This document shows positions 44,595 through 46,241 of a stretch of DNA of 64,000 bases, piece by piece (position 1 is the stretch's first letter; each line of letters starts with the position of its first letter). The stretch covers positions 124,001 through 188,000 of the forward strand of contig NZ_CP129968.2 in assembly GCF_030503875.2 (NCBI RefSeq). Direction: 5' to 3'. The stretch comes from Marivirga arenosa. GTDB taxonomy: Bacteria > Bacteroidota > Bacteroidia > Cytophagales > Cyclobacteriaceae. The translations under genes and the position numbers were made by a program. A model generated the notes under the pieces. It made no database searches and was not told where the DNA came from. It worked only from the letters and a program-made list of their open reading frames with translations.

Positions 44595-44723
44595 AACGGT
44601 TTGCATATGGCTTGTGGCGGTTTAGAAGCACTTTCCCTTCCAGCGAGACCAAAGCTGGCTATGGAGAGAAAGCCTTGCTGGCAGCCATTCTCCCGCCATA
44701 AGCTATATGCGTTGTTGTGCCAC
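44595..44723. repeat. Long imperfect palindrome, attC-like, left border of a two-gene unit
   Basis: The 18-base arm GCATATGGCTTGTGGCGG (44603-44620) pairs with 44693-44710 at 16 Watson-Crick and 2 G-U positions. The 72-base centre contains further stems (CCAGC/GCTGG, GAGAA/TTCTC). AACG (44595-44598) and CGTT (44710-44713) mark the ends, and the sequence then runs into GTTGTTGTGCCAC (44711-44723). The architecture is that of an attC site, though the R boxes do not match RYYYAAC/GTTRRRY. It ends 5 bases before the stop codon of the leftward gene. Confidence 0.65.
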
Positions 44724-44728
44724 GTTTT

Positions 44729-45409
44729 TTATTTTATTCTTTCGCAATATTGTATAGCCTCCTTGCATTCTATGTCTAAGAATTCGTTCATTTCGAAAAA
44801 CTGATTTCTTATTGTCCAAACAAATCGAAATTCAGATTGAACTTGATACTTGTTGTCCTTTAGATACATTAGATCGATACCATTTCCAATCATCTCGTTG
44901 GTTCGTTTAGCCATTCCTGGTCCACCAATAATAAAATTCCCTTCTTCATTCGTAAAGTCCTTCGCAGAAAGTCCTTTAATTTCCTTTTCAATTATGCGTC
45001 CATCTTGATAGTTACAAAACCCTACAAATACTTGGTCATTTCCTAAAATACTATTTGAAATAGCAGCTGCAAAGTTGATAGGGTCTTTTATTCTAAACAC
45101 TCCGTCAGTTTCAAATTCATCCATTATACTTTGAGAATGAAGAAGGCTTGTCGAAAGCATATATCCATTTTTACCTACACGAGTCATTAAATGAAAAGTA
45201 AATCCTTCTTTGTCAGATTTACCTGTTATTGAACCGCCACCTTCAGATTTATCTCCACGAATTTCATCAGGATATTTTCTAAACTTATCAAACGAGCTGA
45301 TTCGCAATTTACCTTCATCAAAGAACAAGTCAATAAACTGCTTGTCCATATACCTATAAACGATAGGAAATTTAATGTTTAATGGTTTTCCTATTTGTAG
45401 ATTTATCAT
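44729..45409 (-). CDS. Accessory protein of unknown function, second gene of the bounded unit
   Basis: The 226-residue cytoplasmic protein opens FPIVYRYMDKQFIDLFFDEGKLRISSF, continues KFRKYPDEIRGDKSEGGGS, then has mixed alpha/beta sequence. The opening (tyrosine-arginine, helix, 'L..SSF..FR...DE..GD..EG') recalls DUF2971-like proteins, a group found with mobile and defence genes, but I cannot make a firm assignment. It begins 9 bases after the nuclease-like gene and shares its borders. An ADP-ribosyltransferase-like fold is a possible reading, not shown. Confidence 0.65.
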   Translation of the reverse strand: MINLQIGKPLNIKFPIVYRYMDKQFIDLFFDEGKLRISSFDKFRKYPDEIRGDKSEGGGSITGKSDKEGFTFHLMTRVGKNGYMLSTSLLHSQSIMDEFETDGVFRIKDPINFAAAISNSILGNDQVFVGFCNYQDGRIIEKEIKGLSAKDFTNEEGNFIIGGPGMAKRTNEMIGNGIDLMYLKDNKYQVQSEFRFVWTIRNQFFEMNEFLDIECKEAIQYCERIK

Positions 45410-45418
45410 AGTTTTAAA

Positions 45419-46036
45419 TTATGCTAATAAGTTACTGAGAAGGTCAAATTGTATTCGGTCATGATATTTAATCACATATGTTATCCTATCTATATTTTTT
45501 AAGTCTGATTCTCTTCGTCTCAGATAAGGAATAAGTTTGTTTTGAAGGTAATTATTGCTATTCAGAACTTGAATAAAAATTGAATATCGAAATTGGAGTT
45601 CGTCCACGTATTTACCGAGTTTGATAATATCTTTTTTTAATTGCTTTTTACCATTTGAGTGTTCAAGGGCTCTAAGTGTTTTAATCTCGCAAGCTATTAA
45701 TTGTTGATTGAGGGTATTTTGTTGTTCATGGAGAACGAAATCTGGATAGACTTCACTTAAACTTTGGTGTCTGAGGATAGAATTATCTTTTCTTATTTCA
45801 CCATTTAAGATCAGGTTTTCATAGGTATTTGATTCTGTTATAGTTCGCCAACGGTAATAAAACTCATAAGCAAACACTCGTTCTCCCATCTGTTGATTGA
45901 TTCCATATTGCCAAATTAAATATTGCCTATCAACTTGCGTTAATGCAGTTAGAAAGTCTTTGAAATAGAAGTCATAGCCATTTAGTATTGGTAATTCCTG
46001 TCCATCTTCAATTTGTGTATTATAAATTTCATTCAT
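45419..46036 (-). CDS. Putative PD-(D/E)XK-fold nuclease, first gene of the bounded unit
   Basis: The 205-residue protein has a readable PD-(D/E)XK core: an N-terminal helix with Glu in GERVFAYEFYYRWRT, then the strand YPDFVLH, and after a 17-residue loop the strand LIACEIKT (Pro-Asp ... Glu-x-Lys). A helical C-terminal half (KKQLKKDIIKLGKYVDEL, then strand RYSIFIQVL) fits the rest of the fold. Such small nucleases occur in restriction, phage-defence and mobile-element genes. No homologue recognised by name. The start lies 16 bases beyond the core of the right palindromic element. Confidence 0.65.
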   Translation of the reverse strand: MNEIYNTQIEDGQELPILNGYDFYFKDFLTALTQVDRQYLIWQYGINQQMGERVFAYEFYYRWRTITESNTYENLILNGEIRKDNSILRHQSLSEVYPDFVLHEQQNTLNQQLIACEIKTLRALEHSNGKKQLKKDIIKLGKYVDELQFRYSIFIQVLNSNNYLQNKLIPYLRRRESDLKNIDRITYVIKYHDRIQFDLLSNLLA

Positions 46037-46051
46037 TCATTGTTTTTTAAT

Positions 46052-46138
46052 GTGGCACAACAACTGTATATGTGCACCTTTGGTGCACATATACGTCCAA
46101 TATCGGAGATATAGTTACCCCTTGGTGACGATATATCT
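46052..46138. repeat. Double-hairpin element with inverted core, right border of the two-gene unit
   Basis: GTGGCACAACAAC (46052-46064) is the exact complement of the core at 44711-44723. Next to it, GTATATGTGCACC (46066-46078) and 46082-46094 are a perfect 13-bp inverted repeat with a 3-base loop, then AGATATAGTTACC (46107-46119) pairs imperfectly with 46124-46138. Read on the coding strand, the element ends in the core just before the start of the first gene. It looks like a shortened version of the left element. Confidence 0.6.
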
Positions 46139-46241
46139 ATTATGTCCTTCTAGTTCCAAAAAAATTGTTGAATTAGGTTTTGGTTGTAGATGAACTGATA
46201 TCATAAATGTAATAAAATTATTTTGAATGTATACAAAACAA

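Follow-up and report, generated by a model that had tools for sequence, protein, structure and literature searches.

Two co-directional genes of Marivirga arenosa stand between two inverted copies of a 13-bp core, an arrangement that raises the question of whether they form an ordinary operon or a unit that can be moved as a whole. The window, i.e., the whole stretch of 64,000 nucleotides that was analyzed, carries the cores at 44711–44723 (+ strand) and 46052–46064 (− strand), exactly where the earlier note had placed them, and both sit within 16-nt inverted arms that are 94% complementary. Cassette genes 1 and 2 (45419–46036 and 44729–45409, both on the − strand) lie 15 and 5 bases inside the cores, in agreement with the 5–16 bases claimed, and the neighbors on either side are minus-strand open reading frames (ORFs) of 561 and 1,075 aa. 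The exact 13-mer is found at only these two places in the 4.05-Mb genome, with one-mismatch matches at three more. When up to two mismatches are allowed, the window contains three matches, compared with a mean of 0.52 in shuffled sequence; since 2 of 100 shuffles also reach three, the core pair by itself is only moderate evidence. A search of Rfam gave no match in 44.4–46.4 kb. With a probability of roughly 85%, the two genes make up one gene cassette belonging to an integron-like capture system, whose recombinase is encoded 79 kb away and whose attI-like site is a landing pad without an integrase.

The unit obeys the cassette logic of integrons. In this grammar, the front bases of a cassette, counted from GTT, are the reverse complement of the AAC-ending box that opens its own 3′ palindrome, and the GTT closing the palindrome is the start of the next cassette. 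The window cassette comprises 1,464 bp on the − strand (44597–46060); its first base is the T that follows G^ (46061), and its last is the G of the closing GTT. Its 5′ core GTTGTGCCAC (46052–46061, −), which is R-like and would become the closing core of the site in a circle, is matched in 10 of 10 bases by the R″-like box GTGGCACAAC (44714–44723, −), its reverse complement. This box opens an attC-like palindrome of 129 bp (44595–44723, −), identified by its fold and by the pairing with its own core, in which an L″-like arm GCATATAGCTTATGGCGG (44693–44710, −) pairs with an L′-like arm CCGCCACAAGCCATATGC (44603–44620, −). These 18-nt arms pair without a gap and differ at two positions, both A against G, i.e., T.G wobbles on the + strand of the window. 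The palindrome ends in the closing GTT (44595–44597, −), the 3′ crossover point: homology of the left flank to G172, another genome of the same species, ends at 44598, and G172 closes at the corresponding GTT. The left element folds better than 200 of 200 shuffles (z −2.76) and is a complete attC-like site, as had been suspected. It recurs at three more places in the genome with 88%, 72%, and, for a 29-nt piece, 90% identity, and each copy adjoins the 3′ side of an ORF in the ORF lists.

The detector used for such units gives two alternative starts for the window cassette, 46064 and 46061. The latter is preferred because the pad motif then reads CARTTG^TT, as in the other pads of the genome, and because the 5′ spacer then has the modal length of 3 nt, with wobbles at the modal 10 and 15 nt after AAC. 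Most likely, only the inner 10 bp (46061–46052 and 44714–44723) form the true core; the outer GTT of the 13-bp repeat would then be part of the pad motif CAGTTG^TT at the right end and of the spacer AAC at the left end, and shared by coincidence. The cores had been proposed as the borders of the unit. The right core is indeed the cassette front, but the left border is the closing GTT at 44597–44595. Genes flanked by 13-bp inverted repeats could also point to a transposon- or MITE-like unit bounded by terminal inverted repeats, which is very improbable: the left border lies 114 bp outside the repeat, the repeat is specific to the cassette, with neighboring cassettes carrying other cores instead of the same ends, neither gene matches a transposase family, and the exact 13-mer is confined to the two places given above.

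On the right, a second palindromic element had been claimed. In fact, this element is the 5′ end of the cassette abutting the attI-like hairpin of a landing pad. The pad end (46061–46094, −) combines a perfect 13-bp hairpin (46066–46078/46082–46094) with CAGTTG^TT, and is preceded by a second hairpin (GATATATCGTCACC...GGTAACTATATC; 46108–46137, −) and by the core of a conserved leader, ATCAGTTCATCTACAACCAAAACCT (46175–46199, −), a putative promoter. The stretch with the hairpin outside the right core folds better than 200 of 200 shuffles (z −4.12). With up to three mismatches, the leader pattern has seven copies in the source genome, and its reversed control has none. Five copies lead to hairpins and CAGTTG^TT; in the other two, what is left of the recombinase 3′ end comes next, and then an attI of the genome's own type. 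All seven pads open into at least one cassette, and one into six; an empty pad without any cassette was not found among the seven, and no circular cassette was observed. At three of them, the core match is just 8 of 10 bases, and a walk from random window GTTs takes a first step of at least this quality in 4 of 400 trials.

The syntenic locus of G172, a comparison proposed in the earlier note, reveals that the whole block has been replaced by other cassettes and that the left border falls on the GTT that had been predicted. Between flanks with identities of 93 and 94%, G172 has 6.5 kb and the source genome 1.6 kb. The same leader is followed by four chained cassettes with other genes and core matches of 9, 9, 9, and 8 of 10 bases, and the G172 pad closes at the GTT corresponding to window position 44597; a fifth step of the walk runs into the flanking gene and was taken as false. 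Homology between the two genomes ends at 44598 in the left flank and at 46174 in the right flank; thus, the pad hairpins differ in sequence between them. Despite this difference, both genomes keep a hairpin beside the insertion point. More widely, members of the genus have a clear attI hairpin, as do L350, L352, L233, L236, and L238, and in most of the other lineages shown it is weak or absent. The first cassette near 1742781 of L215, in an integrase-less pad of G172, and that of L219, at the attI 3′ of a recombinase in another species (G003), appear alike by eye. A single cassette of the G172 pad (L215:6822–8534) contains ORFs on both strands, named by eye as peroxiredoxin-like, oxidoreductase-like, and regulator-like, which is unusual for a cassette.

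The position of the crossover is also indicated by 22 pairs of cassettes that are alike at both ends, several of them not letter for letter in the interior. Twenty of these pairs have different upstream flanks, which are common for just 0–3 nt to the left of GTT, and 17 have different downstream flanks, common for just 3–5 nt counted from the G of GTT. A cassette of 1,015 bp is identical in genomes of two families (L160 in G164 and L166 in G129) with different flanks, which is evidence of transfer. L160 itself gave no chained hits in the 40-locus detector run described below.

The absence of an integrase from the window, as reported earlier, was confirmed by a search for the integron-integrase family (E ≤ 1), but the genome does contain a recombinase 79 kb away. 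This tyrosine recombinase of 378 aa (C1:248838–249974) has an intact frame and is the genome's best match to the integron-integrase model, among several tyrosine recombinases matching it. The catalytic R, K, HxxR, H, and Y residues are invariant in 13 aligned members. Starting 41 bp after its stop codon and running in the same direction are 15 chained detector hits; a stepwise walk of this array stops after five cassettes, with a jump to a nearby G[TC]T, and the detector continues. Neighboring cassettes have differing cores, and a cassette of 853 bp is present three times in identical form, at 250016, 254543, and 258790. In this system, an attI site adjoins the recombinase gene: the first junction lies 41–53 bp after the recombinase at 6 of 8 loci of the genus (one is at 2,417 bp and one contig is too short), and 47–109 bp after it at 7 of 9 array-positive loci on long contigs. 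Just upstream of the recombinase, a divergent ORF of 124 aa with CxxC-type cysteines was observed (L106:8366–8740, −), and similar sequence precedes the recombinase at most of the genus loci shown. Elsewhere in the genome, at C1:2558210–2582612, two kinds of tyrosine recombinase match recur four times, 7,746 bases apart, suggesting an element in four tandem copies.

The window unit is single, lies 79 kb from the recombinase, and has the opposite orientation, and the two pads with a recombinase 3′ remnant before attI look as if a recombinase gene had been deleted there. The unit may accordingly be viewed as a relic, the one immobile cassette left by an array that lost its integrase. This reading is rather unlikely. 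Pad content is wholly different between two genomes of one species, the core pairing is complete, and the 18-nt arms differ by nothing more than two wobbles. Furthermore, the different contents of the seven pads argue for repeated use, and the recombinase available in trans has an intact reading frame.

An ordinary integron cassette, moved by a canonical IntI and with sites that have drifted, would likewise show the cassette logic, site size, and bottom-strand bias known from integrons, and the recombinase does pass NF040815 (site-specific tyrosine recombinase/integron integrase), by 4 bits (224 versus a cut-off of 220). Against three other models, it remains below the cut-off (TIGR02249, 209/265; NF011946, 136/435; XerD, 193/330). 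Its alignment to Vibrio cholerae IntI4 (2a3v) breaks at the I2 insertion, and an integrase with the IntI-specific I2 domain is thus missing from this system. The spacing from K to HxxR is 64 in the source recombinase and 64–69 in 34 of 35 array-linked rows (two of which, L184 on a contig that ends 395 bp after the gene and L190, are without a demonstrated array), versus 106 in 3 of 3 true IntI proteins. The exceptional value of 232 (L182) was taken as an artefact of the pattern. The Xer-like enzyme of the genome has a spacing of 70, and 14 of 15 relatives without arrays have 62–73, the remaining one giving no reading; since these relatives also lack the insertion, its absence is a trait of the wider family and not of the array-linked members alone. 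No protein of the source genome or of 148 genomes of the order passes the IntI cut-off, in a search that found IntI in 2 of 14 other genomes as a positive control and gave no match in the control genomes of the order search itself. In the tree, IntI proteins form a separate group (support 100/99), and the deeper branching among the others is not settled; the array-linked state needs nine changes, so a single origin is not settled either, and some branches are very long (L297, 10; Xer row, 4.68).

The sites, too, differ from canonical attC. The set contains 211 sites from 38 sources, 210 of them distinct, with a median inner length of 118 nt (range 39–344); it includes register duplicates, among them the window site, and probably a few false sites, and its figures are counts rather than probabilities because related sites are not independent. 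The closing core fits GTTRK in 172 of 210 sites and GTTRRRY in 28; the RYYYAAC box is found in 25, and both canonical boxes in 5. The attC boxes are therefore not those of this system, and the window core GTTGTGC does not fit them either, as the earlier note had remarked of its outer boxes. Given these box counts, the K-to-HxxR spacing, and the lack of any protein passing the integron-integrase model in the order, movement by a canonical IntI is improbable.

The sites are also polar. The bottom strand gives the better fold at 169 sites and the top strand at 38, with 3 ties. By far the commonest difference between the arms is A in the 5′ arm versus G in the complement of the 3′ arm (217 cases, against 24 of the reverse). 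When the sites are grouped into 146 clusters, the wobbles lean toward the bottom strand in 113, toward the top strand in 4, and are equal in 29, and the A/G difference falls 12–17 nt after AAC in 124 of 136 clusters, with a main peak at 15 and a smaller one at 10. Among 405 control hairpins from viral DNA, A/G occurs in 137 cases and the reverse in 142. At a lower gap penalty, the arms align gap-free in 92 of 145 clusters; 31 clusters show a base present only in the 5′ arm and 26 one present only in the 3′ arm, with 4 showing both kinds, and the wobble occurs in 134. Extrahelical bases on the R″–L″ arm are hence not characteristic of these sites. One canonical site, from a class 1 integron region, has single extra bases and no such wobble; that site and the literature constitute the canonical yardstick, as no recognizable attC was found at true IntI loci and no convincing attC on two environmental plasmids. 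Judged from these comparisons, T.G wobbles at fixed positions contribute more to marking strand polarity than extrahelical bases do.

How widely the grammar occurs was assessed with a detector that demands 8 exactly matching core bases and an arm score of 9 or more. Hits count as chained if the end of one is the start of another, and because overlapping hits are counted, there are more hits than cassettes. At 40 recombinase loci of the order, picked by score and contig, not randomly, from 60 non-source matches, 146 chained hits were found in 404,026 bases; 20 of the 40 had at least two. Viral DNA served as the control. Its 74 stretches carrying the core plus two bases show no common element by eye in the 60 bases preceding and the 30 bases following each match; they were regarded as chance matches and therefore used as control DNA, which yielded 6 chained hits in 1,244,390 bases, at 3 locus-strands, when read on both strands. 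The antisense strand is unusable for this purpose because the grammar is symmetric (112 chained hits vs 146). Five mononucleotide shuffles of the 40-kb source region gave 1–4 hits each, and when the 40 order loci were shuffled once apiece, 2 chained hits appeared altogether.

Relatives of the recombinase (E ≤ 1e-70) are present in 112 of 395 sampled Bacteroidota genomes, the source genome included. Among the best 80 of at least 588 relatives in named genomes, chained cassettes are located downstream at 16 loci (15 of Bacteroidota and one of a Chitinivibrionales MAG) and upstream at none. Forty of these 80 loci have at least 3 kb of downstream sequence, and 15 of them are positive (14/25 of Bacteroidota and 1/15 of others). 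At the one positive locus outside Bacteroidota, L298, where the contig may have been misbinned, two chained hits begin 131 bp past the recombinase match, and a strong hairpin (z −7.6) precedes them. In a sample of 20 chosen matches on long contigs, one per genome, with positives defined by at least three downstream junctions, arrays occur downstream at 9 loci, upstream (4 kb) at none, and in one shuffle of each locus at none. Within the genus, the recombinase is found in 8 of 10 genomes, including the source, and arrays accompany it at 7 of 8 loci, the contig of the eighth ending after 395 bp. Tandem cassettes in which the front core pairs with the box of the cassette's own 3′ palindrome are thus a regular feature of these loci. 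Loci without an array by this detector (11/20 on long contigs and 64/80 in named genomes) are explained partly by contig ends and perhaps partly by recombinases with other work. Many contigs of draft genomes stop a few hundred bases 3′ of the recombinase, as if repeated cassettes had broken the assemblies.

Intergenic hairpins are common, and the core pair alone would be only moderately unlikely, so that regulatory or terminator hairpins around an ordinary two-gene operon might resemble a cassette by chance. This explanation is hardly credible: the rule repeats in chained arrays with clean upstream controls, the block is replaced within a species, and both results refute it unless the control loci are unrepresentative. 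The earlier inference of a mobile or cassette-like module that uses an unusual recombination element is thus supported by the grammar, seen at cassette borders in many genomes and with palindromes of the same type 3′ of ORFs in the source genome, and by the exchange of content within a species.

The cargo gives few clues to its role. The product of cassette gene 1 (205 aa) has a PD...EIK motif, whose PD and EIK residues are invariant in 12 aligned members, i.e., the protein and its 11 relatives, and may be a PD-(D/E)xK nuclease; the structural model has low confidence in the motif region, and the protein reaches the cut-off of no Pfam family and matches no PDB fold significantly. Cassette gene 2 (226 aa) has 87 relatives and no Pfam family at cut-off, and although its structure is modeled with confidence, no fold in the PDB matches it significantly. 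Of 394 other sampled Bacteroidota genomes, one contains it at E ≤ 1e-20, with 33% identity. A suspected resemblance to DUF2971 was not borne out. Although a role of the two genes in defense is possible, neither matches PADLOC.

These observations suggest the following mechanism. The attC-like palindrome would be the recombination site of the cassette, split between the 5′ core and the 3′ palindrome when the cassette is inserted. The recombinase at C1:248838–249974 most likely acts at G^TT, and would join the palindrome to an attI-like site, probably as a folded bottom strand recognized by its fixed T.G wobbles; a single-strand route is consistent with the strand bias. Here, the attI-like site would be the integrase-less landing pad with its conserved leader and hairpin, so that the two genes lie co-directionally behind a presumed promoter. 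Cassette grammar, GTT borders, arrays beside the recombinase, pad exchange within a species, the absence of the IntI insertion, and the wobble bias are each documented at the level of sequence, and from them we infer that this recombinase moved the window cassette.

Several known systems resemble the one described here. In the parts of PMC2727003 and PMC9024848 that concern them, integrons, including sedentary chromosomal integrons, CALINs, and single attC sites, have, like the present system, arrays of short cassettes linked to an integrase, palindromic sites of similar length with boxes ending in AAC or starting with GTT, spacers of some 3 and 5 nt that stay unpaired, and a bottom-strand bias, and cassette-less and integrase-less forms exist. 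In contrast, the present recombinase has no I2, the cores are GTTRK and not GTTRRRY, and wobbles occupy fixed positions where canonical sites have extrahelical bases. In addition, the arrays start at the 3′ end of the recombinase gene and follow its direction; in the class 1 integron region used for comparison, the cassette genes lie on the strand opposite to intI1. Because the unit lacks the I2, R-box, and extrahelical-base features, it is filed as an integron-like system of Bacteroidota and not as a canonical integron. Dimer-resolution Xer recombinases act at dif. XerA, XerC, and XerD share with the present enzyme the length between catalytic residues, and the latter passes an XerA-type NCBI model, but it heads cassette arrays, and the members in the genus have about 100 extra N-terminal residues before the SAM-like domain. 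CTXphi integration by the host XerCD, as described in part of PMC4792948, offers a precedent: a folded single strand is used there by a recombinase without an I2-like domain, and the stem has no extrahelical bases; CTXphi, however, has neither gene cassettes nor an integrase of its own.

According to PMC9024848, IntegronFinder 2 detected one complete integron in Salinibacter, and earlier work had found Bacteroidetes integrases only without cassettes; a passage of PMC8618304 includes Bacteroidota among the integron-bearing phyla. In the relevant portions of PMC2426708 and PMC9668308, the additional domain is used as the criterion for IntI. Extrahelical bases and the choice of the attC strand are treated in part of PMC2727003, and the I2 domain of integron integrases, in the part of PMC4792948 on this subject, accommodates these bases. 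The joint origin of the domain and the sites was presented there by Escudero et al. (2016) as a chicken-and-egg paradox. Open-access full text, a scope outside which preprints and most subscription papers lie, gave no description of such Bacteroidota arrays with a recombinase without the IntI domain.

The integron-integrase model stays below its cut-off on the present recombinase, and few of the sites fit the canonical boxes. Since relatives of this enzyme occur in 112 of 395 genomes and arrays at 9 of 20 loci, a route of gene flow in a major phylum may have been overlooked. It is somewhat probable that Bacteroidota carry a second, widespread kind of integron, in which an Xer-like recombinase without I2 would capture cassettes, two fixed T.G wobbles would provide polarity, and integrase-less pads with a leader would let one recombinase feed several expression sites. 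A cassette system that lacks I2, with sites mostly free of extrahelical bases, makes the question of the origin of domain and sites testable, and raises the questions of whether a plain Xer-like architecture suffices for capture and what would then block the second strand exchange. Such a system may have arrived at the integron principle independently, or may be a surviving representative of the stage that preceded I2.
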